From Bacteroidales bacterium (GTDB taxonomy: Bacteria; Bacteroidota; Bacteroidia; Bacteroidales; ML635J-15), in NCBI GenBank assembly GCA_017994175.1, contig JAGOLH010000023.1, positions 1 through 42,141 on the forward strand: a stretch of DNA of 42,141 nucleotides, written 5' to 3'. Positions 27 through 36,358 of the stretch are shown here, piece by piece; the stretch's first letter is position 1, and every line of letters starts with the position of its first letter. The notes beneath the pieces were generated by a model that saw nothing but the letters and a program-made list of their open reading frames with translations, was not told where the DNA came from and searched no databases. The translations under genes were made by a program, and so were the position numbers.

Positions 27-470
27 ATGCAAAAAATAAAAATCGGAATTATCATCTGCAATCGTTACCATACTTGTGCCGGTGGCAAATGTTTCAGAGC
101 ATTGCAAAACAGAGAAGGTGCTTTTTATGAATACAAGGATAAAGAAGTAGAAATTGCTGCATATACTACCTGTGGCGGTTGTCCGGGTGGCAATATTGAG
201 TATGCACCCGAAGAAATGAAAAAAAACGGCGTAACCGTAATTCATTTTGCAACAGGTATGGTAGTTGGCTATCCGCCTTGCCCAAGAATTGATTATTTCA
301 AAAAATTTATCGAAGATAAATATAATTTAAAAGTTGTTATCGGAACCCACCCAATTCCGCAAAAATATTTTTTACCACATAATAAACTTAAAACATGGCA
401 AAGTAAGTTTTGGCAAGAGGCTATAATGCCCACTATTGCAGATGAGCAAACTCGATTGGAATATGATTAA
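27..470 (+). CDS. CGGC domain-containing protein
   Basis: This 147-residue cytosolic protein has the hallmark CGGC motif (about residues 49-52, followed by PGGN). An N-terminal cysteine group (ICNRYHTC, then GGKC) and a later PPCPR motif complete the pattern. This matches the CGGC-domain family, small proteins of anaerobes thought to bind a metal or Fe-S cluster; no reaction is established. The length is normal for the family. It is the first gene of a plus-strand run with two MinD/ferredoxin ATPases and a ferredoxin, and its stop lies 10 nt before the preferred ATG of the next gene. The context suggests a role in Fe-S or redox-protein handling, which is inference. Family assignment is fairly sure; function is not. 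Confidence 0.85.
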   Translation: MQKIKIGIIICNRYHTCAGGKCFRALQNREGAFYEYKDKEVEIAAYTTCGGCPGGNIEYAPEEMKKNGVTVIHFATGMVVGYPPCPRIDYFKKFIEDKYNLKVVIGTHPIPQKYFLPHNKLKTWQSKFWQEAIMPTIADEQTRLEYD

Positions 471-480
471 AATTGAAAAA

Positions 481-1347
481 ATGAAAATTGCTATTGCCAG
501 TGGAAAAGGAGGAACAGGGAAAACTTTAATTTCTACCAATCTGTTTTATGTGCTTCAACAACATAATATCAATATTTCATTGGTTGATTGTGATGCCGAA
601 GAGCCAAACGATTTGGTATTTTTTATCGGAGAGAAAGAAAAATCTTTTGAGGTAAACCAAAAAGTTCCTGTAATAGATGAAAGCAAATGTACTTTCTGCG
701 GAAAATGTCACGAATACTGCAATTACAACGCAATTTTTATTTTACCTCCGGCAAAAATAATTAAAGTGATTGAAGATTTATGTCACGGTTGCGGAGCTTG
801 CACAGTAGCCTGTAAACTTGATGCAATCAGCGAAAAAGATGTTTCGCTTGGTACCGTAAGTTGCTTTAGTAATACCGAAAAATCTACAATTATCGAAGCC
901 AAAATGAAAGTAGGCGTTTTTTCGCCCGTTTCTATAATCAAAGAGGCAATTAAAGAAGCTGGTAACAATGGGATTATTCTTTTAGATTCTCCTCCGGGTA
1001 CTTCGTGCCCTTTTATTCAGACCGTTGTCGGAGCTGATTTTGTTATATTGGTTACCGAACCAACGCCTTTTGGTTTAAGCGATTTAAAGCAATCGGTTGA
1101 GACGCTGAAAACCATGAATAAAACCTGTGGTGTAATTATAAACCGTGCAGGTCTTGGTGATAATGAAATTTATGATTATTTAAAAAAAATACAAATTCCA
1201 TTATTAATGGAAATTCCCTTCGATAAAGAAATAGCATCTTTTTATTCAAAAGGAGAATTATTTGTGAAATATAAACCGGAATGGGAACAGCACTTCATTT
1301 CAATGTATAACTCAATAGTTGAAGAATATGGAAATAGCCGTAATTAG
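481..1347 (+). CDS. MinD-superfamily P-loop ATPase with inserted ferredoxin domain (first copy)
   Basis: The 288-residue protein opens with a deviant Walker A motif (SGKGGTGKT) of the MinD/Mrp/NifH type. A two-cluster ferredoxin insert follows, with CTFCGKCHEYC near residue 62 and CHGCGACTVAC near residue 86, then the later ATPase motif LLDSPPGTSCP. This is the COG1149-like group of MinD ATPases with an inserted ferredoxin, which are not cell-division MinD; they are probably involved in Fe-S or cofactor assembly or electron-transfer coupling. I chose ATG 481 because the Walker A begins within ten residues of it. ATG 463 and TTG 436 would add residues that overlap the previous gene. In both clusters the last cysteine is not followed by proline, unlike classical ferredoxins. 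It overlaps the next gene by 20 nt, which suggests translational coupling. Confidence 0.9.
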   Translation: MKIAIASGKGGTGKTLISTNLFYVLQQHNINISLVDCDAEEPNDLVFFIGEKEKSFEVNQKVPVIDESKCTFCGKCHEYCNYNAIFILPPAKIIKVIEDLCHGCGACTVACKLDAISEKDVSLGTVSCFSNTEKSTIIEAKMKVGVFSPVSIIKEAIKEAGNNGIILLDSPPGTSCPFIQTVVGADFVILVTEPTPFGLSDLKQSVETLKTMNKTCGVIINRAGLGDNEIYDYLKKIQIPLLMEIPFDKEIASFYSKGELFVKYKPEWEQHFISMYNSIVEEYGNSRN

Positions 1348-2191
1348 CGGGAAAGGAGGAACAGGAAAAAGTAGCATAAGTGCTGCCTTTGCAACATTAC
1401 CCGAAAAAGTTGTTTTGGCTGATTGTGATGTGGATGCCGCTAATTTGTATATTCTTTTCAATCCTACACAAGAAGAAGTACAGGTATATATTGGCGGACA
1501 AAAAGCAGAAATTAACTATTCATTATGTACGAATTGCAAGTTGTGCATTGATTATTGTCGTTTTGGAGCTATTTCATTATTGAATGATAAGGTGATTATT
1601 TCAGACACCTCATGCGATGGCTGTAAACTATGTTCACGTATTTGTCCTGCCTCGGCAATTAGCATGATTGACAGTAATAAAAGCCGTATGTATGCAGGAA
1701 CATTTCGCAATGGGAAAATGGTATATGGTCGCCTTGCACCAGGTGAAGAAAATTCAGGAAAACTTGTAAATATTGTTCGTGATAAAGCTAAAACAATAGC
1801 CAAAGCAGAAAATATTGAAACAATAATTATTGATGGTCCTCCGGGTATTGGTTGCCCTGTAATTTCAACAATCACAGGCGTTGACCATGTTGTAATTGTA
1901 ACAGAGCCAACTATTTCGGGAATACATGATTTAAAAAGAACTATCGAAATTACAACAAAATTTAATTTAAAAACTTGGGTAATTATTAATAAGTATGACT
2001 TGAATTCTGAAATGACTAACCGGATAGAGGATTATTGCAATAGTATCAATATTAGTATTGTCGGAAAACTTCTTTTTAATCCCCATGTGGTTGAAGCGAT
2101 GGTTAATTGTAAAAGCGTTGTGGAATATGCTCCGAAATCGGATTTTGCAACAGGAATAAAATCTGCTTATAACATAATTACTAATAAATAG
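1328..2191 (+). CDS. MinD-superfamily P-loop ATPase with inserted ferredoxin domain (second copy)
   Basis: The 287-residue paralogue of the preceding gene has the same layout: Walker A SGKGGTGKS at the N terminus, then CTNCKLCIDYC and CDGCKLCSRICP ferredoxin motifs (about residues 61-100), then IIDGPPGIGCP. Proteins of this type usually occur as adjacent pairs, and the two copies here probably form a heterodimer. ATG 1328 is preferred over TTG 1319 because the ATPase motif starts immediately after it. It lies inside the end of the upstream gene (20 nt overlap) and is followed after 12 nt by a ferredoxin gene. Substrate or client protein is unknown. A role in maturing or driving a redox complex is suggested by the decayed hdrC gene just downstream. 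Confidence 0.9.
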   Translation: MEIAVISGKGGTGKSSISAAFATLPEKVVLADCDVDAANLYILFNPTQEEVQVYIGGQKAEINYSLCTNCKLCIDYCRFGAISLLNDKVIISDTSCDGCKLCSRICPASAISMIDSNKSRMYAGTFRNGKMVYGRLAPGEENSGKLVNIVRDKAKTIAKAENIETIIIDGPPGIGCPVISTITGVDHVVIVTEPTISGIHDLKRTIEITTKFNLKTWVIINKYDLNSEMTNRIEDYCNSINISIVGKLLFNPHVVEAMVNCKSVVEYAPKSDFATGIKSAYNIITNK

Positions 2192-3601: not shown

Positions 3602-5407
3602 TTATAAATCAACCATGGGTTTGAATCCGTCGCATCGCAACACCATTGCATTTTCGTAATAGCTCCATGTGTTTTCCACCTTAAGTATATACAATGATTG
3701 AACTATTCTATCCGACAGCTCGTTTATGCTGAGAACTTGTTCCTGACCCGCCTGCATCATTAGCCTGAATCTTGATCTTTCATCCATTTGCAGCGTAGTA
3801 TCATCCTCGGTAAATCCGGGTATATAATAAATCAGGCGAATACCATAACTCAAAAATTCACCGGAAGCCGAGGCCAATGATCCGTGCAAGGCAGCCAGCG
3901 ATGAAACATAGTCGTGTTTATCGGGAAACCCCACGTTCTCCGAAATGTTGCCTACTGCAACAATACATTGTGGCTTTTGCGGTACACTCGCTTTTATTAT
4001 CTCCAACGGTGAAAAAAAGTTGTTATTTTCCGGTTGTGTTAACTCCGATGAGGTCTGAATAAGATAATCAATAGCTATTTCAGAGGCTGATAATTGTATT
4101 GCCAACGAATTTACATCTTTGTCGCTGGAAAAATCACAAAAAATGTACTGCAGATGATTGTGCTGTATGTGGGGGAGTGCTCCATTACCTGTTATTACAG
4201 CAAATACACGGGCTCCATATTCAATGAGTTTTTCAGCGATTGCTCTCCCAAGGCCAGATTGTGCTCCCAGTACCATAGCTGTTTTGCCTTCCATTTCATG
4301 AATGATTTTATTGGGGTACGAAACGGAAAACTCGGGAACTAAATAGGTAAAGGCACCATAGTTGCCGCCAACACCTGCCATTGCTGATAAAATTTTAGTG
4401 CCCGGGCTAAGCTTGTTTTGCTGGTGTAAAAGCGATAAACTCATGGGAACGGTTGCCCCCGAAACATTTCCGTATTGCATCTGCGCATCTGTAAAAAGTT
4501 TACTACGCGGAATACCCAGCTTTTCAATTGCCGGAAGTAAAATAGCGTTACCTGTTTGATGAGGCACAAAGAAATCGATGTCGGTAGTCTGCCAGCCTGT
4601 ATTGCGAAGCGCTGATTCAGCTGCTGCCGGAATGTTGATTATTGCCCTGTCTTTAATTACGTTGTCATCCATAAAAAGATCCCATCTTTTGTCGACTCCC
4701 ACAAAATCGACCATGGAAACATCGTGATAATTGACTATATTCAGTAAACCCTGTGGTAAGGGAGTTTCAACTTTCGATAACACTACTGCAGCGGCACCAT
4801 CGCCGAAGGTTACAAACGGAACAAACTTGATACGGTTCGTAAGAAACGAAGACATGGTTTCGGAATGAACAACTACAACATGTGTCGATTCAGGGTGAAA
4901 CTTTAGGTATTCAACTGCTCTCTCAAGGTTAATATTGAAGCCGGCGCAACCCGAGGTTAGCGTAAATGCCGGAGTGGTATTGTTGATGCTCACCAGATAC
5001 GACTTCATGCTGGCTGCCATTCCCGGAGCCTGTTCGTGAGGTGAAACAGTGCTTAAGAACCACGCAGCCACCTGAGAAGGATGTACACCACTGTTGTTCA
5101 GAGCATTTCGTACTGCGCGTACTGCCAGATCAAGTGATGACTCGGCAAAGTAAATCTTTTTGTTGGTGGGAGGGAAAGGAGTTACATGATGCCGAACGGA
5201 GAAACCCATTTTTTCTTCGGTGAAATAGTCGAATGCTGTTTTTCCCGGTTGTCGCTTCAGGAATTCCTGATAATTCCTGCTGCTTACAACCTTATCGTTG
5301 CTGAATCCACTGAGATGATAATTGTGTAACGCAGTGCCAATTTCGTTGTTGGTAATTTTAAAACGGGCTTCTGCGTGCCCTATGCCTGAAAATATGTACG
5401 ATTCCAT
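3602..5407 (-). CDS. KASIII-like ketosynthase fused to a degenerate SDR domain (fusion B)
   Basis: The 601-residue protein has two parts. Residues about 1-365 are a FabH/KASIII-like condensing enzyme with an apparently intact triad: Cys154 (TSGCAGF), His283 (VPHQTGN) and Asn314 (YGNVSGA). Residues about 370-601 form a short-chain dehydrogenase/reductase domain. Its cofactor loop reads LGAQSGLG (the usual Thr is Leu), and its active-site block is YVSSL at Tyr500, so the catalytic lysine of YxxxK is missing. I infer a functional condensing half and a reductase half that is inactive or structural. It is the last gene of a four-gene unit, 4 nt after the ALDH-like gene. It is a paralogue of fusion A (6673-8535). 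Substrate is unknown. Confidence 0.85.
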   Translation of the reverse strand: MESYIFSGIGHAEARFKITNNEIGTALHNYHLSGFSNDKVVSSRNYQEFLKRQPGKTAFDYFTEEKMGFSVRHHVTPFPPTNKKIYFAESSLDLAVRAVRNALNNSGVHPSQVAAWFLSTVSPHEQAPGMAASMKSYLVSINNTTPAFTLTSGCAGFNINLERAVEYLKFHPESTHVVVVHSETMSSFLTNRIKFVPFVTFGDGAAAVVLSKVETPLPQGLLNIVNYHDVSMVDFVGVDKRWDLFMDDNVIKDRAIINIPAAAESALRNTGWQTTDIDFFVPHQTGNAILLPAIEKLGIPRSKLFTDAQMQYGNVSGATVPMSLSLLHQQNKLSPGTKILSAMAGVGGNYGAFTYLVPEFSVSYPNKIIHEMEGKTAMVLGAQSGLGRAIAEKLIEYGARVFAVITGNGALPHIQHNHLQYIFCDFSSDKDVNSLAIQLSASEIAIDYLIQTSSELTQPENNNFFSPLEIIKASVPQKPQCIVAVGNISENVGFPDKHDYVSSLAALHGSLASASGEFLSYGIRLIYYIPGFTEDDTTLQMDERSRFRLMMQAGQEQVLSINELSDRIVQSLYILKVENTWSYYENAMVLRCDGFKPMVDL

Positions 5408-5411
5408 TACA

Positions 5412-6641
5412 TTATTTATTTTCCTGAGTAATCAGTGAATACAAATCAAATTTACCACCGTTTTTAACGTATCCGCTTTCTTTCGAATAGGTGAATGCCG
5501 AATTTTTAAATCCACCCCAGTGTCCGCGATAGCCTATATTTGTGCGTAGTATATCAAGAAAATCACAATTGTCGAAAACAAAAGCATGATCAGCCTGTAA
5601 GTCTGCAATAATTTCATCTTTCATGTCCGTGCCAAATACTGATACAGCGAGCTGATAGTCGTTGTGACGTATAAAGCTGCTGATTTCTTCGGGTTTACAC
5701 TGCACAATGCTCAGTACCGGAGCAAAGTGATACTTCTGCCAAAGATCTGAATTTGGATGTGGATTTGCAATAATTGCCGGTGTAACCATTACTCCATCTT
5801 CAAGAGTTTTAATCTTGAAGTGTATTAACTCAGCACCGTTTCCGGCTGCTTCATTTACCCTCTCGGCTACTGTGCTGATAATACTTTCGAAACCAATAGG
5901 GGTAACCACTGATGTTCTGACATCAGTTCCCGTAGTAACTCCCTTAAATTGAGTGCTTAGAAGCTGCAGTACATCGTTAAAATCAACATTGGAGCTTACA
6001 ATGCATCTTTTAAAACAAACCGCAGCCTGGCCCGAGAGTATCGTGGTAAGGCGGGTGATAGAATGAATGGCCTGAGTCAGGTTGCTCTTATCGAGTATTA
6101 CAGCAGTGTTGTTGCCTGGTCCAAAATATATCAGTGTTTTTTCATGATCCCTGATACTGCCCAGATAGTTGTTTATCCAATCATCGCCAAAAACAACGAT
6201 TGATTGTATGTTGGGTGAAGTAACCGATTGCTCGAAAAAATCACGATGGCTGCCAACGAAGGTTATGTTTGGAAATAATCCACTTTCATCAACAATCTGC
6301 TTAAAAATACTGCGATAACTACGAAGCACTGTTGGAATATAAATGTGTATTGCAGTATTATTTCCGTTTGCCAGAATTGCCGGTGGCAGGCAAAGCCCCA
6401 GAAGAACGAATGAAGGGTCGCTGTAACAAGAGTAAATGGCTAGCCCTCCTTTGGTTTTGCCATCAACTGAGGCAGACCCCGATGCCCATTCTCGCATTGC
6501 TGCAATGCCTCGTTCAATATTGTCGCTGTTTACGCTAAGATTGGTGCCAATATCAGTACTGTTTGCAGTAGCAAGTTCTGCTTTCTTGTTGTAGAAAAGA
6601 TCAGCTAATTTTAGTAGTAATATTTTGTTATTAATAATCAA
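5412..6641 (-). CDS. Aldehyde-dehydrogenase-fold protein lacking canonical catalytic residues
   Basis: The 409-residue protein has ALDH family order, though shorter than the usual ~480: a Rossmann region with FGDDW in place of the FTGS loop (about residue 151), FGPGNNTAVIL (173-183) in place of ELGGK, SGQAAVCFKR (203-212) for the nucleophile loop, and HFAPVLS (305-311) for EIFGPVL. By eye, the nucleophile Cys is Ala207 (a Cys remains at 209), the general-base Glu is Phe173, and the NAD-ribose Glu and oxyanion Asn are also replaced. It may be a pseudoenzyme, a scaffold, or an enzyme of changed chemistry such as acyl reduction using Cys209. It lies between the two KASIII-SDR genes (31 nt and 4 nt gaps), which argues for a shared pathway. 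Confidence 0.75.
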   Translation of the reverse strand: MIINNKILLLKLADLFYNKKAELATANSTDIGTNLSVNSDNIERGIAAMREWASGSASVDGKTKGGLAIYSCYSDPSFVLLGLCLPPAILANGNNTAIHIYIPTVLRSYRSIFKQIVDESGLFPNITFVGSHRDFFEQSVTSPNIQSIVVFGDDWINNYLGSIRDHEKTLIYFGPGNNTAVILDKSNLTQAIHSITRLTTILSGQAAVCFKRCIVSSNVDFNDVLQLLSTQFKGVTTGTDVRTSVVTPIGFESIISTVAERVNEAAGNGAELIHFKIKTLEDGVMVTPAIIANPHPNSDLWQKYHFAPVLSIVQCKPEEISSFIRHNDYQLAVSVFGTDMKDEIIADLQADHAFVFDNCDFLDILRTNIGYRGHWGGFKNSAFTYSKESGYVKNGGKFDLYSLITQENK

Positions 6642-6672
6642 TAATTCAATTTATTAAATTACCATAATTTAA

Positions 6673-8535
6673 CTAATACTTGAAGTACCCGTCTTTTCGT
6701 ACCAGCAAATTATTCTCGAAGCTGTCACGGGTATTGGTAACTTTGGGCAGGTATAGCGACTTAACCATTCTTTCAGCTATGCGGCCGGTTTCTAAAGGTT
6801 CATTTTGTTCAATTTGCATCATTCCTGCAGCTTTTTGTTCTCTGTTCAGTAAATTTCCCATTCCACCATCAATAATCCCCGGCATATAGTAAATACATCT
6901 GGCGCCTGTATTTTGAATTTTTGTGGATATGCCTGCCGCATAAGCATGCAATGCATTTTTCGATGCAACATAAGCAGATGAGCCGGCAAAACGTGCATCT
7001 TCAGCTACCGAGCCAGTGAATAAAACGGTTTCGCTTACAAGATGCATAAGCTTATCGGTAATATGTTGGATAGCGGTTTTATTCACCATGTAGGCACGCT
7101 GCATTTCGGAATGTGGTATTTTAGTAGCACGGTCAACCATTCCCGATATTGCCGCCGTATGTACCATATACTCGATGGAAGCATATTCTCTCTTAATTTC
7201 ATCGATCATTTTGTCCATTGAATCCGGTTTGCCGAAATCGCATTGAATGCAATGAAGTTTTATTTTGTATTTACCGAGCACATCCTTCAAAAGCTTAATC
7301 TTTTCGGTATTACTATTAAATACAACTATCAGGTTTGCTCCATGCTTTGCAAGATGAGCAGCTATGGCTGAGCCAAGAGCACCTGTGGCACCGGTTATAA
7401 GTGCCGTTTTGCCTTTAAGGTGAAGTGCTTCGGAGTTGAATCCCCTGAAATCGGGAACAATGTAACTGAATCCTCCGAATTCCCCGCCCAGGCCCGCCAC
7501 GGAAGCAATAAGCCTGTTGCCTGGCAAGAGTCTTCCCGATTCATGAAGCATTGCAATGACTGCCGGTACCGATGCGCCCGAAAGGTTCCCCATTGTTTGC
7601 TGCACATCCTGAAACATCATATCAGGCAAAAGACCCATATTGCGTGCCACTTCATGCACAATAGCGTTCCCTGTTTGGTGTGGTACAAAATGACTGACTT
7701 CCGATTTGCTCCACCCCGATGTTGTAAGTAACTCATTGAAAACTGAAGTAATATTCGGTACGGCCCTGCGTTTTACCATGCGGGCATTCATATATAGCTC
7801 CCTTTGCTTATTTGCTCCCAAAAAATCGAGCATCTGCACATCTTCATAATTAACGATGTTCATTACTCCTTCGGGTTGGCGGGTTGTAATGCGACTAACA
7901 ACCACGGCTGCCGCACTGTCGCCGAAAGTTACAAAGGGCACAAAATCGGTTTCGTTCACAAGTAGTTCCGACATTACTTCGGCATGTGCAACAACAATAT
8001 GCTTCGCTTCAGGGTGATTACGCAGAAACATTACAGCACGCTCCAGATTATAGTTGAATCCAACACAGGCCGAAGTTAGTGTCATTGTCTGAGATTTATT
8101 CTCAAACCCGGTAAAATATCCTTTTAATGTTTCAGCAAGACCCGGTGCCTGTTGATGCGGTGTTGCGGTAGAAACCATCCATGCATCTACTTTTTCAGCT
8201 TGAATGCCAGAACATGCAATTGCATTTTCAACAGCCTGAATACATAAGTCAAGGCTATTCTCTGCAATACTATAACGTGCAGAAGAGGGTGGAAAAGGCA
8301 CTACATAGTAACGGGTTGTAAAACCCATTACTTGCTCGGCAAAGTAGCGGAATGGCGATACTTCGGGGTGATTGGCAGCAAAACTCTTATAGTCGCCTGA
8401 TTCCTCAATTCGGGCTTTGTCAAATCCTTTCAGAAACCCTCTTTCGATAGCGTTTTCAATTTCTGAATTTTCTATGCGATGTTTTCCCAGCGAATAGCCC
8501 AATCCGCTGAATATAATGCTATCAAATGTTGTCAT
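6673..8535 (-). CDS. KASIII-like ketosynthase fused to an intact SDR ketoreductase (fusion A)
   Basis: This is a 620-residue bifunctional protein. Residues about 1-365 form a KASIII-type condensing domain with Cys157 (TSACVGF), His286 (VPHQTGN) and Asn317 (MGNLSGA). Residues about 372-620 form a classical SDR with TGATGALG at 381-388, Ser509 and YVASK (Tyr522, Lys526) at normal spacing. The expected chemistry is Claisen condensation followed by NAD(P)H-dependent reduction of the 3-keto group. I use ATG 8535 rather than the upstream ATG 8622: the domain aligns with fusion B from this methionine, and it overlaps the crotonase stop by 14 nt, a normal coupling arrangement. No carrier protein is encoded nearby, so CoA-linked substrates are plausible (inference). 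Confidence 0.88.
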   Translation of the reverse strand: MTTFDSIIFSGLGYSLGKHRIENSEIENAIERGFLKGFDKARIEESGDYKSFAANHPEVSPFRYFAEQVMGFTTRYYVVPFPPSSARYSIAENSLDLCIQAVENAIACSGIQAEKVDAWMVSTATPHQQAPGLAETLKGYFTGFENKSQTMTLTSACVGFNYNLERAVMFLRNHPEAKHIVVAHAEVMSELLVNETDFVPFVTFGDSAAAVVVSRITTRQPEGVMNIVNYEDVQMLDFLGANKQRELYMNARMVKRRAVPNITSVFNELLTTSGWSKSEVSHFVPHQTGNAIVHEVARNMGLLPDMMFQDVQQTMGNLSGASVPAVIAMLHESGRLLPGNRLIASVAGLGGEFGGFSYIVPDFRGFNSEALHLKGKTALITGATGALGSAIAAHLAKHGANLIVVFNSNTEKIKLLKDVLGKYKIKLHCIQCDFGKPDSMDKMIDEIKREYASIEYMVHTAAISGMVDRATKIPHSEMQRAYMVNKTAIQHITDKLMHLVSETVLFTGSVAEDARFAGSSAYVASKNALHAYAAGISTKIQNTGARCIYYMPGIIDGGMGNLLNREQKAAGMMQIEQNEPLETGRIAERMVKSLYLPKVTNTRDSFENNLLVRKDGYFKY

Positions 8536-9298
8536 TACTTTTTTTCTTATTACTGAAGAAATCCTGAATTTGCTTTTTTCCGAATCGGTTAAGCAGACTG
8601 CCAAATTCTCTTGATTCAGCAATGAGGCATTCGTCGATAGGCCGGCTGAGATTCATCCATGCCAGACGCTTTGCAGTAGCAACTACTTCTGGTTGCAAAA
8701 TGTTTATGCTATTTGCAAGAGATAAACATGTGTCGTATAATTCATCGACGGAGCACACTTCCTGAACCAGTCCGAGTCGAAATGCAGTGTCTGCATTCAT
8801 TTCTCTTCCTGAAGCGAGGTAATATAGCGTATTGTTAATCCCAATAAAGCGCGACATCATGCCAATACCTCCGGCACCAGGTATCAAACCATGTTTTATC
8901 TCAGGTAATGATAGTCTGAAACCTGATGATGCAATTCTTATGTCGCAATATAAGGCCAACTCTGCACCTCCACCGGCCACCAACCCATCGAGACAGGCGA
9001 TTACCACCTGAGGCAAAATTGAAATTTTTGCAAATACTTCCTGAACAGCTATTCCGGTAATGGGAGCGTCGGATTCATCTATATCTGCAATGTCTTTCAG
9101 ATCGCCCCCTGCTGAAAATAGCCCTCCGTTACCTTTTATTATTACAGTGTTGCAGCTTTTATCAGTGGCAATACCACGAAAAGCATCATCAAGTTCATGG
9201 AGCATAGCAAAACTGATGGCATTTTTCTTTTCAGGCCTCGATAAACTCAGTATACGGGTTGCTCCGGCTTTCTCGATTTCAATGCAACGGTAAGTCAT
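8522..9298 (-). CDS. Enoyl-CoA hydratase/isomerase (crotonase) family protein
   Basis: The 258-residue crotonase has the two oxyanion-hole segments, FSAGGDL (about residues 61-67) and GLVAGGGAEL (about 105-114). Both glutamates of the hydratase mechanism appear present: one in GGGAEL and one in LPEI exactly 20 residues later, the spacing of rat mitochondrial hydratase Glu144/Glu164. The GLIPGAGG loop follows. It is therefore probably an active hydratase or dehydratase of acyl-CoA thioesters. It is the first gene of the minus-strand unit and overlaps fusion A by 14 nt. In this setting it could dehydrate the 3-hydroxyacyl product of the ketosynthase-reductase. No clear promoter box was found in the 123 nt upstream. 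Confidence 0.9.
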   Translation of the reverse strand: MTYRCIEIEKAGATRILSLSRPEKKNAISFAMLHELDDAFRGIATDKSCNTVIIKGNGGLFSAGGDLKDIADIDESDAPITGIAVQEVFAKISILPQVVIACLDGLVAGGGAELALYCDIRIASSGFRLSLPEIKHGLIPGAGGIGMMSRFIGINNTLYYLASGREMNADTAFRLGLVQEVCSVDELYDTCLSLANSINILQPEVVATAKRLAWMNLSRPIDECLIAESREFGSLLNRFGKKQIQDFFSNKKKSNDNI

Positions 9299-9421: not shown

Positions 9422-11071
9422 TTATTTTTTTATCAGTTCAATTATTGGTTGTCCACTGGAATGAGAGGGCATTGGCATCTGCAGCATTTGAGATATAGTT
9501 GGTGCGATGTCGGTTATATTTACGTTATCAAGCACGGTATTCTTCTTCACTTTCCAGCCGTACCAAAGCAATGGAACATGAGTATCATAATTATACGCAG
9601 AACCATGGTCGGCCGAATAGCTTACGTCGTAGATCCAGCCGGGTTTCAGCGCTATCATTATGTCGCCGCTTCGCTTTGGGTGAAATGAATTTTTCATTTT
9701 CTGCAATATCCCGTCATTTGCTGCATAGTTCGACATGTTATGGGTACTTATGGCATAGGCTACAGCTTCGCTGTTGATTATAAATGAGGCAATTTTATCC
9801 TGCATTTCGTTCAGTGGAATTTTGGAATCTTCTATGAGCAGCCGGTTCAGATAGATTTGCTGATTTGCAAAATCAATGATCCAGGTACCTTCGGCATACA
9901 GAGCTTTAATATAGGACGTGAGCAAAGCTGTCATATAGTGCTGTTTAAACACCCCGGCAGGTATACGGTTATCTTGCAGGTATGAAGGCACGGTGCTTAT
10001 TCCGCTGGTTGAAGTGAGATAGATAAGTACGTTGTTTTTACCGATGGTTTCTTCGAGCACCGATAAAAGCTGTGCAATTTCTTTATCAAGTCGTAAGTAC
10101 ATATCTTCAGTTTCTACAGCATCAGGGCCGAAGTATTTACTTATAACTCCGGCTGGAGAATAGCTCACAAAAAGGAAGTCGGTTATATTATCTTTGCCCA
10201 GTTCTTCGTTGAAAAGGGCATTTACAGCAAAATCGGTTGTAAGCGTATTCCCTTCGGGAACCATGGTAAGCAGTTCGTATTTTTTTACGGATTCTCTGAT
10301 TTTAGGATATACATACGGGAAAGTTTTATAAAGGCCGTCGATGCCATACTCATAAATACTTGTATCATTGAGCGATTCCTTATATTCACTTAGAGGAAGC
10401 ATGGGAATCCAGGTACGGGTAAGATAGTTTTCAGGCTGTTTTTTACTGTTTATTTCATCGACCCATTGGGGTAAAACTTTCATATAATACGTGCCCGAAA
10501 CCCAGTTTCCGGTTTCACGGTCGAACCAGTAGGCGGCATCAGCAGCAAAGCCGCCCATTAACGCTGCGCCGGTGCTGTTCATCGAAATGGAAATTACTTT
10601 CGACTGATTCCGGTTTGCCAGTTTTATTTCATCGCTGAGCGTGGGAGCCAGCAGATTTACAGGCGAAAACGCTTCAGCATTTTTGGAGCCACCAATACAT
10701 TTTGTGTTTTTGTCTTCGGTGCTTTGCACTTTTTTACCGGTAAGCGGCACATACCAGTAATCTGAAACAATTCCATGTTCAGAAGGCTCGGCACCGGTTG
10801 CAATGGTTGCATAACCGGGCGAAACTTGTGTAATACTGTAGTTTAAATTGGCATTCTGGCAGTTGGTTCCATAAATATAGAGCTTCTTAAAGCCATTTTC
10901 TCCGAATTTGTCCCAGTAACGTGTCAGGTAATCGTAACGCATCTGTTCAACCACAATGCCAACAACTAATTTGGGTTTATCGGCGGGTATTATCGGATTG
11001 TCCTGTGCCTTAATGTTTTGATAAAACAATGATAATGCAATAATGAGAATGAAAAAAAATCTTTTGTTCAT
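9422..11071 (-). CDS. Secreted PafA-like alkaline phosphatase homologue, probable pseudoenzyme
   Basis: The 549-residue protein has a signal peptide (residues 1-22, ending KAQ). The whole protein follows the PafA-type alkaline phosphatase/phosphodiesterase superfamily: VVGIVVEQMRYDYL, SPGYATIATGAEPSEHGI, AAYWFDRETGNW, FGPDAVETEDMYLRLD, YDTHVPLLWYGW. Compared with remembered PafA motifs, the first metal Asp is Glu42, the nucleophile Thr is Val83, the Asp/His pair becomes Gly308/Lys312, the Asp-His pair becomes Thr355-Ser356, and the phosphate-contacting Lys/Arg become Asn165/Thr167. Only His489 of the zinc site remains. Fold conservation with loss of catalysis suggests a binding, regulatory or structural role in the periplasm. 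Start is ATG 11071, which restores the signal peptide, 16 nt after kdsD. Confidence 0.85.
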   Translation of the reverse strand: MNKRFFFILIIALSLFYQNIKAQDNPIIPADKPKLVVGIVVEQMRYDYLTRYWDKFGENGFKKLYIYGTNCQNANLNYSITQVSPGYATIATGAEPSEHGIVSDYWYVPLTGKKVQSTEDKNTKCIGGSKNAEAFSPVNLLAPTLSDEIKLANRNQSKVISISMNSTGAALMGGFAADAAYWFDRETGNWVSGTYYMKVLPQWVDEINSKKQPENYLTRTWIPMLPLSEYKESLNDTSIYEYGIDGLYKTFPYVYPKIRESVKKYELLTMVPEGNTLTTDFAVNALFNEELGKDNITDFLFVSYSPAGVISKYFGPDAVETEDMYLRLDKEIAQLLSVLEETIGKNNVLIYLTSTSGISTVPSYLQDNRIPAGVFKQHYMTALLTSYIKALYAEGTWIIDFANQQIYLNRLLIEDSKIPLNEMQDKIASFIINSEAVAYAISTHNMSNYAANDGILQKMKNSFHPKRSGDIMIALKPGWIYDVSYSADHGSAYNYDTHVPLLWYGWKVKKNTVLDNVNITDIAPTISQMLQMPMPSHSSGQPIIELIKK

Positions 11072-11087
11072 AAAAATATCTTCTGCG

Positions 11088-12065
11088 TTATACAACACCT
11101 TCTCTGATCAGATCGTGCAGATGCACCATCCCCAGATAATTGCTTCTGCTGGTAACAATTATCTGTGTAATACTGTTTTCTTCGAGTATTCTCAAAGCTT
11201 TTACTGCCAGCTCCGATTCGTCGATGGTTTTAGGGTTTCGCGACATGATATCCTGTGCTGTCAGCTCACTTATAACTGCCAGATTCTTTTGAAGCATTCT
11301 TCTCAAATCGCCGTCGGTAATGATTCCAACCAGATTTTCGTTGTTATCAATTACTGCAGTCGCGCCCAACAGCTTACTGGTCATTTCCATGATTATGACA
11401 TCTACCTTATCGTGTATGCTTACCTTCGGCACCTGATTTTGTTTACATAGTTCGCTAACCCGCATATATAACTTACGTCCGATTGATCCTCCGGGATGAT
11501 ATCTGGCAAAATCTTCTGTTGTAAAGCCTTTCAGCTCGAGGAGGCAAACCGCCATAGCATCGCCCATTACCAGCTGAGCGGTAGTACTGCTTGTGGGTGC
11601 AAGGTTATTTGGACAGGCTTCATGTGCAACTGTGGCTTTTATAACATAATCGGCTTCCGTTGCCAGAAATGAACTGATATCCGACACCATGCCTATGAGT
11701 GTGTTACCAAGCCGTTTAATAAGCGGAATAAGTACTTTTATTTCGGGAGTATTACCACTTTTCGAAATGCATAGCACAATGTCATGTTCCTGAACAATGC
11801 CAAGATCGCCATGGATTGCGTCAGCAGCATGCATAAATATTGCGGGTGTGCCTGTGCTGTTAAGTGTTGCAACAATTTTTTGCCCGATAATCGCACTTTT
11901 TCCAATCCCAGTAACAATTAGTCTGCCTTTTGATTTTGAAATGAGATGCACCACCTCGGCAAATCTTTCATCGCAGTATTCGGGCAGGTTCTCAAGCGAT
12001 TTAATTTCCAGGATAATGGTTTTTTTTGCGACATCGAGTACGAAATCTTTTATTTTTTTATTCAT
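11088..12065 (-). CDS. kdsD: D-arabinose 5-phosphate isomerase (KpsF/GutQ family)
   Basis: The 325-residue enzyme has an N-terminal SIS sugar-isomerase domain with VTGIGKSAIIGQK (about residues 51-63), FMHAADAIHGDLG and SKSGNTPEI, followed by two CBS domains (about residues 205-325). It converts D-ribulose 5-phosphate to D-arabinose 5-phosphate, the first step toward KDO for lipopolysaccharide. The length is typical, and the SIS-CBS-CBS order separates it from simple SIS proteins. It is divergent from recQ and probably co-transcribed with the pseudophosphatase gene 16 nt downstream. A candidate TAnnTTTG box lies just upstream of its start. Paralogous GutQ-like isomerases cannot be excluded by sequence alone. 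Confidence 0.93.
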   Translation of the reverse strand: MNKKIKDFVLDVAKKTIILEIKSLENLPEYCDERFAEVVHLISKSKGRLIVTGIGKSAIIGQKIVATLNSTGTPAIFMHAADAIHGDLGIVQEHDIVLCISKSGNTPEIKVLIPLIKRLGNTLIGMVSDISSFLATEADYVIKATVAHEACPNNLAPTSSTTAQLVMGDAMAVCLLELKGFTTEDFARYHPGGSIGRKLYMRVSELCKQNQVPKVSIHDKVDVIIMEMTSKLLGATAVIDNNENLVGIITDGDLRRMLQKNLAVISELTAQDIMSRNPKTIDESELAVKALRILEENSITQIIVTSRSNYLGMVHLHDLIREGVV

Positions 12066-30211: not shown

Positions 30212-33200
30212 ATGAATACTTTGATGTTTAAAATTGCCTTGTTTGCAATAATTATTTCGGTTTTTTCGGGTGAGTTCTATCAGAAAAACGTAATTACCCC
30301 TCCCGATAAAACGTATGAAGAGTTATGGAATGAAGTAAAGGAATTCGAATCGAAAGGTCTGCCAAAATCAGCCTTAGAGGTGGTAGAGGCGATTTACAAA
30401 AAAGCAATGGCGGAACAAAACAGCGAACAGGTTACAAAAAGCTGTTTGTACAGGTATAAATACATGTATGCTCTCGAGGAAGATGGTTTGAGCAAAGTAA
30501 TAAAACAACTTGAAGCGGATATTAACATCATGCCCGGTAAGTCGAAATATTTCGGGTATATGCTTCTTGCAGAAATTTACAGCGATTACCTTGAAATGAA
30601 TTATTATGTCATAGGCCAGCGAACACGCCTGAGCGAATTTACACCTGATGACCTGGCCACCTGGGATGTTAGTCATTTTAAAGATAAGATCATTAAAAAC
30701 TATGTGCTGGCATTAAACAATGAACTGAAAACGGAGCCCATCGAAAAATACCCGGAACTCATTGAATTTACCGAAAAAGGAAAGAAATCATGTCCGACAG
30801 TTTTCGATTTGTTTTCGCACATGGCTTACAGGCTTTTTTCAACTCCGGTTTCAAACTGGTACAGCAACAACTACGACAGAAATGAAGCGATTATTACCAA
30901 CATTCAATACTGTGAAACTGCTGAAGTTTTTTCAGAGACCGATTTTCTTGCAAACGATTCAATATCTTATGCTTTCTATACGCACAAAGTGCTGAAAGAT
31001 TGGATTAATTTCAGGCTCAGTGACCCAAAATCCGCGGAAGCACTGGTTTTCGCTGACCTGATCCGGCTGAATTACTACCGGATTCATGTTCAGCATCCCG
31101 AAAAGGATAAAGTATGGATGAATACCATGCAGGCATTACACGATAAATTTTTTAAGAATCCGGTAATTGCAGAAATCGATATACTCATTGCAAACTACTA
31201 CTACGCCATTGGCTCGAAATACTCTTACAGCGATACATTATCCTGGAAAAATGCTCCCTACATGCGAAAAGCATACGATTTGGTCGATCAGGTAGTGAAA
31301 ATGTATCCCGACACTACCATATCGGCAAAGTGCATGAACCTGAAATCTTCAATCGAAAAGAAGGAAGCCGGAATGTATTCATTGCATAATAGTGGAAGCG
31401 GAAAAAACACTCAAGTTCAGATATATTACCGGAATGTGAATAAAGTTAACCTGAGCTTGCTAAAGATCGACTATGAAGATTACCGCAAAATAGAGAGAAA
31501 ATACTACGACAGGGAAGATAAAATTGCTGAATTATTGTCGAAGTCAACGATTGTAAGCACTGAGAAAATTGACCTCGGCAACGAAACCGACATGAACATG
31601 CATGCGAGGAACTATTTTGTTAAACCGTTGCCCAAAGGCCACTATTTGTATGTGTTACATCAATCCGATAATATTGCTGACGAAAGAATGCTTTTGTCGT
31701 ATAATGCCATTTTTATAACAGATTTTGTTTATACTCACAGGGCCAGCGAATCAGGTGACCTGGAGTTTTTTGTAATGGATAGAACATCCGGAGACCCTGT
31801 AAAAGGTGCTCAGATAACTTTTTACACTGAGAAATATAATTACATTACCAGCTCTTATAACTACGATAGGGTAAAGCAGCTTTTCACTGATACAAACGGT
31901 TATGTTTGTTTTAATCCAGATGATGATGACTACAGAAGCTATTATGCTGATATCAGAAAGGGTGACGATTTTGTTGCTGTAAACAATTATTTATATTCCT
32001 ACAATTACAATTATAACGACGATGACTCCGAGACGGTGACACTTTTTACCGACAGGGCTATTTATCGTCCGGGGCAAACAATATATTTCAAAGGAATTGC
32101 AACCAGTACAAAATTAATGGTTACAAAATTACTTCCCAAACTTTCAACCACAGTTGAGTTGCGCGATCCGAATTATCAGGTGGTGGGCAGTGCACAGGTT
32201 AAAACCAATAACTTCGGAAGTTTTGCAGGTAGTTTCGAAATCCCTTTAGGAACCGTTACCGGCCAGTTCCAGATATCCTGTATCGGAGGAACAAAATACA
32301 TTAGTGTTGAAGAATATAAACGTCCCAACTTCGAAGTGGTTTTTAAACCCGTGGAAGATGAATACAGAATTGGCGACAGTATCAAAGTTACTTCAAAAGT
32401 GCAGTCGTATGCAGGTTCTAACATCACCGATGCAAAAGTGAAATTTACTGTTACACGTCAGGTTTCATGGAGGGGCTGGCCATACTATTATTCATATATT
32501 CCCGCAAAAGAGGTTTGTTTTGGGGATGTGGTTACTGATGAAAATGGAGATTTTACGGTAAGCTTCAGGGCAGAGCCCGACAACGAGGTGCCGGGGCAGC
32601 AAAATGTTTGCTTCCAATACTCTGTTAGCGCAACAGTTACCGATATTACCGGTGAAACACAACAGGGTTCTACTTACGTTTTTGCAACCAATAAAAGCTT
32701 GTTGCTTGAATCAGATCTACCTGAAATGGTTAACAAAACCAGTATTGATACGCTGAGAATATACGCCAGAAACATTAATGGCAAAGATATCAATACTCAG
32801 GTAAAGGTGAGATTTGTGGCTCTGGAAGATACAAAGAACCTGCTCCAGCCTGATTTGTTTGGCAAAACTGACAGGTCGGGATACTCAAAAGAAGAATGGT
32901 ACAGTTTGAATCCGGGTGTTGCCTATTCCAACGAAAACGATTACAGAACCTTCCGTGAGTTGAAAACAGTTCTGAGTTATGATGTGAAAACCGGGGAAAA
33001 TTTCAAAATACTGATAGCCAACGATATACGTAAACTTAACCCGGGAAGATATTGTCTGAAATTGCAGGCAAAAGATAAATTTGGTGGCGATGTTGAAGAA
33101 CTGAAATATTTTACTGTGTACGACCCGGGTGTAACTGCAATGCCATATATGGCAGCGACCTTATTCATTCAGGAAAACGCTACCGTATTACCAGGGGAAA

Positions 33201-36200
33201 AAGCGATATTGTATCTCGGCACATCATTCAAAGATGTTAAATTGTCGTATGAGCTTGAACACAAAGGCGTTATTGCAGAACGAAAATGGATTAATGTAAG
33301 CAACGAAATCAAAAAAATAGAGATTCCGGTTACCGAAGATTTCCGTGGGAATTTTACTGTTCACGTGCTCTTTGTTAAAAACGGCAGACAATACACATCG
33401 ACCTTCATATTTTATGTGCCGTGGACAAACAAAGAACTGAACATTAAGCTCGAAACCTTTCGCGATAAAATTGAACCCGGTTCTAAAGAGGAATGGAAAA
33501 TTAGAATTACAGATAATGATGGAAAACCTGTCTCAGCCGAAATGCTTGCAGGCATGTATGATGCTTCTCTCGATGCTTTTACAGCCAATTCGTGGTGGCT
33601 CAACACCAATCCTTATTATTACTCTTTCCGCTATTGGGGTACATCGTGCTATAGTTTGAATGGATCCCGCTTTTTATATACATTCCCAATGAGCTATGCC
33701 AAAGTCCCCAATGATTATGTAATGTTTAACTGGAATGGTTATTCTCATGGGGGATATTATTACAGTTACGATATGAGTGGTGGGTATGAATATGAGGGCG
33801 ATATGAGGAATTATGACCGTATGGCGGTATCGGACAGTCAATCCGGCATGGCAGGCGGAAGAGAAAAAGCTGCAAAAGAAGAAGCTCCCTCAGCTGCTTA
33901 CGGTATGGCAGAAATGAGCCTTGTTGATGCTGATGAAACAGTAACAACAGCAACTCGAAACGGACCTACTTCAGGAGAAGGTAAAATGGGGCAGCAACCA
34001 AAGATAAGAGCCAATTTTAACGAGACAGCATTCTTTTATCCGCAAATGGTAAGCGACTCCAATGGAGTTATTATGCTTACATTTACTGCCCCCGAAAGCC
34101 TTACCCGCTGGAACCTGATGGCGCTTGCACATACCACCGATCTAAAAATTGGCTCTTTAAATAAACAGATTGTTACGCAGAAAGAGCTTATGCTTATGCC
34201 TAATGCCCCCAGATTTATCAGAGAAAACGATACGTTGATATTTTCGGCAAAAATAAGTAATATCAGCGAAAAACAAATTACTGGCAATACAACTGTTCGC
34301 CTATTCGATGCAATTACAATGCGTGAAATTACAAACGAATTGTTGTTGTCATCACCCGATATGCAGAAATTCGATGTTAAAGCAGGTGGCAATGTTGAAG
34401 TAAACTGGAAAATCTCGGTACCATCAGGCTTGGCAGGAGTTGTTTACCGAATTACTGCCGAAAGCGAAACCCACAGCGACGGCGAAGAGAAATACCTTCC
34501 CGTACTGCCAAACCGTATGTTGGTTACCGAATCAATACCTTTGCCAATAAGAGGGGGACAGACAAAAAAGTTCAGTTTTAATCACATGAAGCAATCTATT
34601 CAGTCATCAACTCTGACGAATTATAAACTTACCCTTGAATTTACATCGAACCCTGCATGGTATGCTGTTCAAGCGTTACCTTATCTGGCAGAATACCCGT
34701 ATGAATGTGCCGAACAAACTTTCAGCCGGTATTATGCAAATAGCCTAGCCGCATATATTGCCAACAGCGACCCAAAAATAAAAAGGGTATTCGATGTGTG
34801 GAAAAGCACTCCCGGCAGCGACGCGCTGAAATCGAATCTGGAGAAAAACGAAGAGTTGAAAGCCTTGTTGCTGGAAGAAACCCCCTGGGTGCTTGAAGCT
34901 CAGGATGAAACAGAACGCAAGCATCGTATTGCCCTGCTTTTCGATGTTAACCAGATGAAAAACCAATTGAGTACCGCATTATCAAAACTTAAGAAAATGC
35001 AGGTGTACAACGGAGCATGGCCATGGTTTGACGGAATGCCGGAAGATCGCTATATCACACAGCATATTGTAGGAGGCATAGGTCATTTGCAAAAACTGGG
35101 CGTGGTTGATGTTTCATCAAACAACGAACTGTATTCAATGGCAGGAAAGGCTATCGATTATATGGACAATGAATTGGTAAAAGATTACAAAGCCCTGCTG
35201 AAGTATTATACTCCCAAAGAAATGGAACTTAATCATCTGGGATATTATCAGATTCATTACCTCTATGTGAGAAGCTTTTATAAAGATATATGGCCAATAC
35301 CGGAAAAGTCAAAAACAGCCTTCGAATATTATAAAAAGCAAGCCGAAAAATACTGGTTGAGCAACAATCGCTACATGCAGGGAATGTTGGCCCTTGCACT
35401 CTTCAGGTTCGATGAAAAAGAGGTTGCTTCCGATATTGTGGCATCACTGAAAGAGTATTCACTGCAAAGTGAAGAAATGGGTATGTACTGGAAATCCGAT
35501 GCCGGATACTATTGGTATGAGGCACCTATCGAAACACAGTCGCTGATGATTGAAGTTTTCAATGAAGTAAGCTCCGACAGTATTGCAGTTGAAGAAATGA
35601 AGATATGGTTGCTGAAACAAAAACAGACACAGGACTGGAAGACAACCAAAGCCACCGCTGATGCTATATATGCTCTGTTGCTTACCGGTATGGAATTGCT
35701 CAGCGATGACCAGTTGGTTGAAATTACACTGGGAACAGAAAAGATTAACCCGGCCGAAATGAAAGACTTGAACGTGGAAGCAGGAACGGGATATTTTTCA
35801 AAATTTTGGAGTGGCTCTGAAATTAAACCGGAAATGGCAGATATTACAGTAAAAAAGCCCGGTAAAGGGATTGGATGGGGCGCAGTGTATTGGCAATATT
35901 TTGAGCAATTAGATAAAATTACATCGTTCAAGGATACACCGTTAAAAATCGATAAGAAACTGTTTGTCGAACTGCGTAAGGATGGTAAAGTAGTAATGAC
36001 CCCTGTAACAGAAAAAACTCAGCTTCATGTTGGCGACAGGGTTATTGTAAGAATTGAGATACGGACAGACAGAAACATGGAATATGTTCATCTGAAAGAT
36101 ATGCGTGCTGCCTGTTTCGAACCGGAATCGGTGTTCTCGGGGTATAGATATGAACACGGATTGGGTTTCTACCAGAGCATCCGGGATGCGTCAATGAATT

Positions 36201-36358
36201 TCTTTATTTCATATCTTCATCAGGGTACCTATGTCTTTGAATATCCCCTGATAGTTTCTCAGAGAGGAGAATTCAGCAATGGCATTACTACGATGCAATG
36301 TATGTACGCCCCCGAATTTACCACACACAGTCAGGGCATTCGTGTCAAAGTGCAATAG
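30212..36358 (+). CDS. Alpha-2-macroglobulin family protein with CAEQ thioester motif
   Basis: The 2048-residue exported protein has an N-terminal hydrophobic signal without a lipobox, then a ~600-residue helical region. MG2-like blocks follow (TDRAIYRPGQTIYFKG, about residues 609-624), several macroglobulin beta domains, an A2M segment (AFFYPQM...LTRWNLMALAHT, about 1272-1310), and the thioester domain with ECAEQ: Cys1499 and Gln1502 can form the thioester. C-terminal helical repeats and a receptor-like beta domain end it. Such proteins trap proteases in the periplasm. A Tyr/Gly/Ser-rich stretch (about residues 1125-1260) occupies the bait-like region. The usual partner PBP1c is not adjacent. 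It ends in a terminator. Confidence 0.93.
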   Translation: MNTLMFKIALFAIIISVFSGEFYQKNVITPPDKTYEELWNEVKEFESKGLPKSALEVVEAIYKKAMAEQNSEQVTKSCLYRYKYMYALEEDGLSKVIKQLEADINIMPGKSKYFGYMLLAEIYSDYLEMNYYVIGQRTRLSEFTPDDLATWDVSHFKDKIIKNYVLALNNELKTEPIEKYPELIEFTEKGKKSCPTVFDLFSHMAYRLFSTPVSNWYSNNYDRNEAIITNIQYCETAEVFSETDFLANDSISYAFYTHKVLKDWINFRLSDPKSAEALVFADLIRLNYYRIHVQHPEKDKVWMNTMQALHDKFFKNPVIAEIDILIANYYYAIGSKYSYSDTLSWKNAPYMRKAYDLVDQVVKMYPDTTISAKCMNLKSSIEKKEAGMYSLHNSGSGKNTQVQIYYRNVNKVNLSLLKIDYEDYRKIERKYYDREDKIAELLSKSTIVSTEKIDLGNETDMNMHARNYFVKPLPKGHYLYVLHQSDNIADERMLLSYNAIFITDFVYTHRASESGDLEFFVMDRTSGDPVKGAQITFYTEKYNYITSSYNYDRVKQLFTDTNGYVCFNPDDDDYRSYYADIRKGDDFVAVNNYLYSYNYNYNDDDSETVTLFTDRAIYRPGQTIYFKGIATSTKLMVTKLLPKLSTTVELRDPNYQVVGSAQVKTNNFGSFAGSFEIPLGTVTGQFQISCIGGTKYISVEEYKRPNFEVVFKPVEDEYRIGDSIKVTSKVQSYAGSNITDAKVKFTVTRQVSWRGWPYYYSYIPAKEVCFGDVVTDENGDFTVSFRAEPDNEVPGQQNVCFQYSVSATVTDITGETQQGSTYVFATNKSLLLESDLPEMVNKTSIDTLRIYARNINGKDINTQVKVRFVALEDTKNLLQPDLFGKTDRSGYSKEEWYSLNPGVAYSNENDYRTFRELKTVLSYDVKTGENFKILIANDIRKLNPGRYCLKLQAKDKFGGDVEELKYFTVYDPGVTAMPYMAATLFIQENATVLPGEKAILYLGTSFKDVKLSYELEHKGVIAERKWINVSNEIKKIEIPVTEDFRGNFTVHVLFVKNGRQYTSTFIFYVPWTNKELNIKLETFRDKIEPGSKEEWKIRITDNDGKPVSAEMLAGMYDASLDAFTANSWWLNTNPYYYSFRYWGTSCYSLNGSRFLYTFPMSYAKVPNDYVMFNWNGYSHGGYYYSYDMSGGYEYEGDMRNYDRMAVSDSQSGMAGGREKAAKEEAPSAAYGMAEMSLVDADETVTTATRNGPTSGEGKMGQQPKIRANFNETAFFYPQMVSDSNGVIMLTFTAPESLTRWNLMALAHTTDLKIGSLNKQIVTQKELMLMPNAPRFIRENDTLIFSAKISNISEKQITGNTTVRLFDAITMREITNELLLSSPDMQKFDVKAGGNVEVNWKISVPSGLAGVVYRITAESETHSDGEEKYLPVLPNRMLVTESIPLPIRGGQTKKFSFNHMKQSIQSSTLTNYKLTLEFTSNPAWYAVQALPYLAEYPYECAEQTFSRYYANSLAAYIANSDPKIKRVFDVWKSTPGSDALKSNLEKNEELKALLLEETPWVLEAQDETERKHRIALLFDVNQMKNQLSTALSKLKKMQVYNGAWPWFDGMPEDRYITQHIVGGIGHLQKLGVVDVSSNNELYSMAGKAIDYMDNELVKDYKALLKYYTPKEMELNHLGYYQIHYLYVRSFYKDIWPIPEKSKTAFEYYKKQAEKYWLSNNRYMQGMLALALFRFDEKEVASDIVASLKEYSLQSEEMGMYWKSDAGYYWYEAPIETQSLMIEVFNEVSSDSIAVEEMKIWLLKQKQTQDWKTTKATADAIYALLLTGMELLSDDQLVEITLGTEKINPAEMKDLNVEAGTGYFSKFWSGSEIKPEMADITVKKPGKGIGWGAVYWQYFEQLDKITSFKDTPLKIDKKLFVELRKDGKVVMTPVTEKTQLHVGDRVIVRIEIRTDRNMEYVHLKDMRAACFEPESVFSGYRYEHGLGFYQSIRDASMNFFISYLHQGTYVFEYPLIVSQRGEFSNGITTMQCMYAPEFTTHSQGIRVKVQ

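Follow-up and report, generated by a model that had tools for sequence, protein, structure and literature searches.

The gene at positions 9422–11071 of the window (the whole stretch of 42,141 nucleotides of Bacteroidales DNA that was analysed) encodes a protein that carries the fold of the alkaline phosphatase PafA from end to end and in which nine of the ten residues of the PafA active site are substituted. It is not a local oddity but belongs to a pseudoenzyme that is core to much of Bacteroidales, a large group that includes gut and environmental bacteria. We propose, with a probability of roughly 0.4 for the statement as a whole, that this exported pseudophosphatase has been kept for binding or scaffolding, most likely as a periplasmic partner of envelope lipid handling, the best-supported form of which is lipoprotein N-acylation.

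The window gene and its product

The reading frame contains no internal stop over its 549 codons (Table 1). An in-frame GTG is found at 11098, upstream of the ATG at 11071, and a start there would overlap kdsD. The predicted product begins with a hydrophobic leader of 22 residues, followed by Gln23; a Gln after the signal peptide is the pattern named the Bacteroidetes Q-rule in published abstracts, and conservation of Q23 is at least 95% both in the Lnb-linked group of homologues described below and in the window-family group.

Pfam PF01663 matches the protein with an E value of 3.6e-32, and its best sequence match among solved structures, as judged by phmmer, is PafA (5TJ3; residues 31–547, E 1.6e-105). 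An AF2 model built from 87 sequences predicts the whole fold confidently (mean pLDDT 95.8, pTM 0.92), and PafA tops the chains re-aligned to this model with VIA-align (Z 63.8 for 5TOO and 63.0 for 5TJ3), with an rmsd of 1.7 over 511–513 aligned residues and 35–36% identity. The PF01663 domain is thus part of a PafA fold that runs end to end. As the PafA equivalog model of NCBIfam, NF042991, gives 576.6 bits against a cut-off of 650, the protein does not qualify as a PafA enzyme by this measure. The intact frame, the signal peptide and the end-to-end fold had all been part of the original prediction, which these data bear out. In the window genome, the sole match to the window protein is its own gene; a second, partial PF01663 match there corresponds to a 517-aa frame located elsewhere.

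Loss of the active site

We read ten PafA site positions from an alignment of the window protein with PafA and 48 homologues. Asp38, Asp305, His309, Asp352, His353 and His486 of PafA are presumably its zinc ligands; Thr79, Asn100, Lys162 and Arg164 are the residues mutated in entry 5TOO, according to the title of that entry. Taken along the sequence, the site letters are D, T, N, K, R, D, H, D, H, H in PafA and E, V, D, N, T, G, K, T, S, H in the window protein, so that H486, the equivalent of His489, is the only one of the ten to be kept; it is also kept in all 35 sequences of the window's family. The substitutions at Glu42, Val83, Asn165, Thr167, Gly308, Lys312, Thr355 and Ser356 and the retention of His489 had been predicted with every residue and number correct, and Asp104 adds a further substitution to that list.

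Table 1. Features discussed in the text, in window coordinates
Feature	Position	Strand	Basis or remark
PafA-like pseudophosphatase gene	9422..11071	(-)	549 aa, ATG at 11071
Type I signal peptide, residues 1-22, Gln23 next	11006..11071	(-)	sequence; Bacteroidetes Q-rule type
PafA-fold domain, residues 31-548	9428..10981	(-)	phmmer 31-547; VIA-align
Glu42 at PafA Asp38, zinc-ligand position	10946..10948	(-)	alignment
Val83 at PafA Thr79, nucleophile	10823..10825	(-)	alignment; 5TOO title
Asp104 at PafA Asn100, phosphate contact	10760..10762	(-)	alignment; 5TOO title
Asn165 and Thr167 at PafA Lys162 and Arg164, phosphate contacts	10571..10579	(-)	alignment; 5TOO title
Gly308 and Lys312 at PafA Asp305 and His309, zinc-ligand positions	10136..10150	(-)	alignment
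Thr355-Ser356 at PafA Asp352-His353, zinc-ligand positions	10004..10009	(-)	alignment
His489 at PafA His486, sole active-site residue kept	9605..9607	(-)	alignment
kdsD/kpsF-type sugar-phosphate isomerase	11088..12065	(-)	16 bp upstream of the pseudophosphatase gene, co-directional
Ketoacyl-synthase-III/short-chain-dehydrogenase fusion proteins, two	3602-5407, 6673-8622	(-)	
Aldehyde-dehydrogenase-family protein	5412-6641	(-)	
Enoyl-CoA hydratase	8522-9298	(-)	

The PhoK outgroup and 37 active-type homologues share all ten letters with PafA. As controls we took the 76 columns outside the site with at least 97% conservation among these 37 active-type sequences. Since the window protein retains 67 of the 76 control columns but only one of the ten site columns, the loss of the site exceeds what chance would give. 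Homology to enzymes combined with loss of the catalytic residues, as expected of a pseudoenzyme, is therefore what the window protein displays.

Distribution of degenerate and intact forms

The homologues examined, 229 in number and drawn from family, order and named genomes, form a non-random sample that comprises 28 family loci, the best 80 matches of one collection scan, 119 order loci, one further locus (L030) and the window. All ten site residues are kept in 37 of them, nine in one, six to eight in none and five or fewer in 191; the survey of orthologues that had been suggested as a check thus found extensive substitution to be common. All 28 family-level loci that were read are degenerate. 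A homologue was found in 49 of the 61 genomes searched (own, family and order). The order-wide draw, whose counts are a fairer figure than those of the 229-homologue collection, gave a match in 149 of 247 genomes; the site was read in 130 of these 149, and 124 had a degenerate copy (119 a degenerate copy only, five also a separate intact copy), the others being five genomes with an intact copy only and one with a nine-of-ten copy. Given these counts and the empty class of six to eight residues, active and degenerate forms represent two distinct regimes, the degenerate one being the rule in the order. As far as the accessible text of searchable papers goes, we found no account of the PafA-like family as a pseudoenzyme or of its link with Lnb.

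Two further observations concern individual copies. Intact PafA copies (L042, L259, L262, L263 and L268) occur beside a degenerate copy in the same genomes, which provides a clean contrast between paralogues. The triad D305/H309/H486 is retained in 22 of the 191 degenerate homologues, a possible single-metal form; in L062, L064, L070, L072, L079, L084 and similar loci, this triad is kept while T79 and D352 are lost.

Purifying selection and confinement of erosion to the pocket

Pairwise dN/dS values were taken from pairs with 80–99.5% identity and dS below 2, which left 105 of 145 degenerate pairs and 15 of 20 active-type pairs usable. The median was 0.053 for the degenerate pairs and 0.063 for the active-type pairs, figures that are descriptive, the pairs being overlapping and non-independent. 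Purifying selection on degenerate copies is as strong as on active ones, the medians being taken from relatives of the window gene. The dN/dS test put forward in the original prediction therefore came out in favor of constraint for these relatives but excluded the window gene itself, whose nearest relative found is 58% identical.

The active-type residue is retained in a mean of 0.81 of the degenerate sequences at the 76 control columns, as against 0.26 at the ten site columns (Mann–Whitney p 2.4e-6), and the least-retained control columns, D163, H83 and Y112, are near site residues in the sequence. Erosion is confined to the pocket. With sites degenerate in most homologues and purifying selection, another hallmark of a pseudoenzyme, acting on the relatives, the family very probably has a non-catalytic, selected function, in line with what had been proposed from the window gene alone; for the window protein itself, we hold this conclusion slightly less firmly.

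History of the site loss

The nearest active-type relatives of the window protein (L166, L171, L165, L170, L179 and L065) are 45–50% identical to it and come from other families. An S8 peptidase gene adjoins two of them, L166 and L065, as well as eleven degenerate loci, and L166 also has the pcrB-PPTase-gldD block; because these neighbors are common to both forms, eroded and intact homologues occupy the same genomic slot.

For the phylogenetic analysis, the 229 sequences were thinned at 70% identity to 138 rows, which were thinned again by identity to give a 67-row tree; L258, L250, L047, L260, L051, L040 and L259 were barred from this tree as long-branched or ambiguous. The active-type sequences L165, L170, L065, L166 and L171 nest among degenerate ones, and none of 200 bootstrap trees groups all degenerate sequences on one side; a single active/degenerate split was not rejected by the AU test (p 0.469). 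No site residue is lost in all 191 degenerate homologues; depending on the residue, between 6 and 93 of them still carry it, and no fewer than two lesions are required to account for every degenerate row. There must therefore have been, barring reversals, at least two separate first lesions, and the site has likely eroded in parallel.

The window's family (n=35) has a pattern of its own: E at position 38 in 33 sequences, T79 in 29, E at 305 in 34, K or R at 309 in 34, N at 352 in 32 and H353 in 29, in addition to the invariant H486. In window numbering, the commonest pattern reads E42, T83, E308, K/R312, N355, H356 and H489. The window protein departs from it by V83, G308, T355 and S356 and is thus more eroded than most of its family.

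Genomic context and the link with Lnb

The window gene is flanked by kdsD and by an enoyl-CoA hydratase gene. No other conserved neighbor was found across the window's family; neighbors vary, and none points to lipoproteins. In the wider collection, two contexts recur. One consists of pcrB, a PPTase gene, gldD, gldE and ssb, with pcrB within 7 kb in 56 of the 229 loci; in the other, the gene sits between lnb and secA, both of which are present in 28 of the 229 loci, secA being within 1 kb downstream in 29. Promoter and terminator scans of the window returned nothing usable, and no tRNA gene was found in it.

Passages of PMC13103446 and PMC12994826, citing the original paper, describe Lnb as the enzyme that attaches the third acyl chain of lipoproteins, and a passage of the latter describes three contexts in which DUF4105 genes are displaced by lnt. 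Lnb (PF25221) is present in 114 of the 247 order-draw genomes. Among the 96 genomes in which both genes could be placed, lnb lies 6–239 bp upstream of the phosphatase gene in 40, on the same strand in all 40; in the 229-homologue collection, lnb is adjacent at 29 loci, 28 of which also have secA no more than 1 kb downstream. In 7 of 81 genomes of one family (f42), from five genera, Lnb and the pseudophosphatase are even joined in a single open frame without a stop, with 31–48% identity to the fusion of genome G071 outside the genus of the latter. In the six of these seven fusion loci that were read (L388, L389, L390, L391, L392 and L393; L264 is the same fusion as L388), the two domains are close to full length and the phosphatase site is degenerate, and in three further f42 genomes the two halves are in line with one stop between them. 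The G071 fusion has a signal-peptide-like segment before its phosphatase part, and the chain may be cut in two after export. A mixed alignment of the fusion was discarded as unusable, the free phosphatase rows having been placed onto the Lnb half. In two genomes of another genus (L039 and L197), lnt is located 387–411 bp upstream.

The window gene lies outside this Lnb-linked branch, as lnb is neither directly upstream of it nor fused to it. A PF25221 search detected no Lnb in the window genome, which has Lnt, encoded on a different contig from the pseudophosphatase gene.

Across 111 families, the phosphatase gene co-occurs with Lnb (raw Fisher p 2.6e-9). We rejected this co-occurrence as evidence after correction with a SecA tree: only about one to two of ten independent pairs that differ in Lnb also differ in the phosphatase gene. 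This tree was made from 90 chosen representatives of the 111 families, 87 of which entered; the 21 left out had ordinary combinations and were dropped by hand at even steps. It contains a clade of 32 families without the PafA-like gene and, with few exceptions, without Lnb, and this one clade accounts for the raw signal. Since the independent-pairs test gives no support, the presence of the phosphatase gene does not follow Lnb as such. Outside the clade, nearly all families have the gene, whether they use Lnb or Lnt, a distribution that fits a core envelope function with either acyltransferase and fits an unrelated function equally. The adjacency to lnb may go back to a single old event within one clade. 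The SecA match of G061 (L355) contains three TGA and three TAA codons, indicative of a frameshift, decay or an assembly error.

Other genes of the window

The region 3602–9298 (-) harbors a co-directional gene set that resembles a small acyl or polyketide-like pathway (Table 1). Two adjoining MinD/ParA-type NTPases, each with 4Fe-4S ferredoxin motifs, are encoded at 436–2191 (+), and a bacterial alpha-2-macroglobulin of 2048 aa at 30212–36358 (+).

Proposed role and alternatives

In the role that we propose, the window protein would be exported to the periplasm and be unable to perform the zinc-dependent phosphoryl chemistry of the PafA family. It would be the local member of the Bacteroidales core pseudoenzyme family, in which purifying selection preserved the fold while the site was eroded, presumably in several lineages. 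The partner acyltransferase would be Lnb in one branch and Lnt in others, and the old phosphate pocket might serve as a docking site for the head group of the acyl donor or for the substrate lipoprotein, or might keep the acyltransferase in a complex. For the window protein, whose genome is Lnt-positive and Lnb-negative, a role in lipoprotein N-acylation is our best guess, extrapolated from another branch. A broader version, which we regard as rather doubtful, is that lipoprotein N-acylation throughout Bacteroidales has an as yet unrecognised partner in the periplasm, a dead alkaline phosphatase that works with either Lnb or Lnt; catalysis would then have been lost in parallel because the non-catalytic function predated the loss in an active ancestor, and one family would have fused the partners into one chain. 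The original prediction was partly right in its interpretation; the order-wide family and the linkage and fusion with Lnb had been missed.

The conserved pseudoenzyme might instead act as a chaperone or adaptor in the periplasm, in the export of proteins or their secretion to the cell surface (Sec, gliding/type IX). We consider this unlikely: the recurrence of secA and of the pcrB block near the gene argues for it, but these neighbors are housekeeping blocks that may persist by synteny alone, lnb in f42 remains next to the gene or fused to it even where secA is far away, and we saw no fusion to a secretion gene. The chances are smaller still that the protein is an altered enzyme, i.e. not dead, with a pocket reshaped to carry out different chemistry or to hold a single metal. 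The triad kept in some degenerate homologues and the altered pattern that is fixed in most of the window's family are consistent with such an enzyme; however, the window protein departs even from the family pattern, and the site letters scatter across the order, whereas a new active site would be uniform.

A role linked to LPS through kdsD, which had been raised originally because of the proximity of the two genes, is improbable. The co-directional kdsD is indeed only 16 bp upstream, and it lies within 1 kb of the homologue in L016, L019 and L055 as well, but these four loci out of 229 all belong to the window's family; the linkage is not conserved beyond three genera of that family, and kdsD is not beside the homologue in the sampled g2 and g4 genomes. 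Least probable of all, and hardly credible in our view, is recent decay, by which a former PafA would be turning into a pseudogene. The original prediction had taken intact close orthologues as the sign of such decay, and the intact homologues at 45–50% identity, two of which (L166 and L065) share the S8 peptidase neighbor with degenerate loci, weakly agree with it, as does the stronger erosion of the window protein relative to most of its family. Yet these homologues belong to other families, none of the 28 family-level loci is intact, and the dN/dS of degenerate copies is close to 0.05, which argues against recent decay, as do the intact frame, the control columns kept and the confidently predicted fold.

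If the preferred reading of an exported pseudophosphatase kept for binding or scaffolding is correct, a core pseudoenzyme under strong selection points to a core envelope function yet to be recognised, and the Lnb fusion provides a direct hypothesis on lipoprotein maturation, a process that shapes TLR2 sensing of gut Bacteroidales. Database names of the 'alkaline phosphatase' type would be wrong in most of the Bacteroidales genomes examined, with consequences for phosphorus-cycling surveys based on PafA gene counts. Occupying the same genomic slot, the homologues with full sites and those with eroded ones also constitute a natural series for the change from enzyme to scaffold.

Comparison with known systems

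PafA is exported, as predicted for the window protein. The PafA of 5TJ3 and 5TOO, which we take to be the Elizabethkingia enzyme, has in common with the window protein the whole fold and a PF01663-type domain, but the window protein has nine of the ten active-site residues replaced and scores below the NF042991 cut-off. PhoK/SPAP of Sphingomonas (3Q3Q) has the same fold (Z 45.5, 23% identity) and, unlike the window protein, all ten active-site letters. Members of the ENPP/nucleotide pyrophosphatase family, which are active with two metals, resemble it in the core fold (Xac NPP, ENPP5–7; Z about 30, 12–17% identity). Lnb of Bacteroides (DUF4105; PF13387 and PF25221) is not homologous to the window protein; it is the neighbor or fusion partner of the pseudophosphatase in the Lnb-linked branch.
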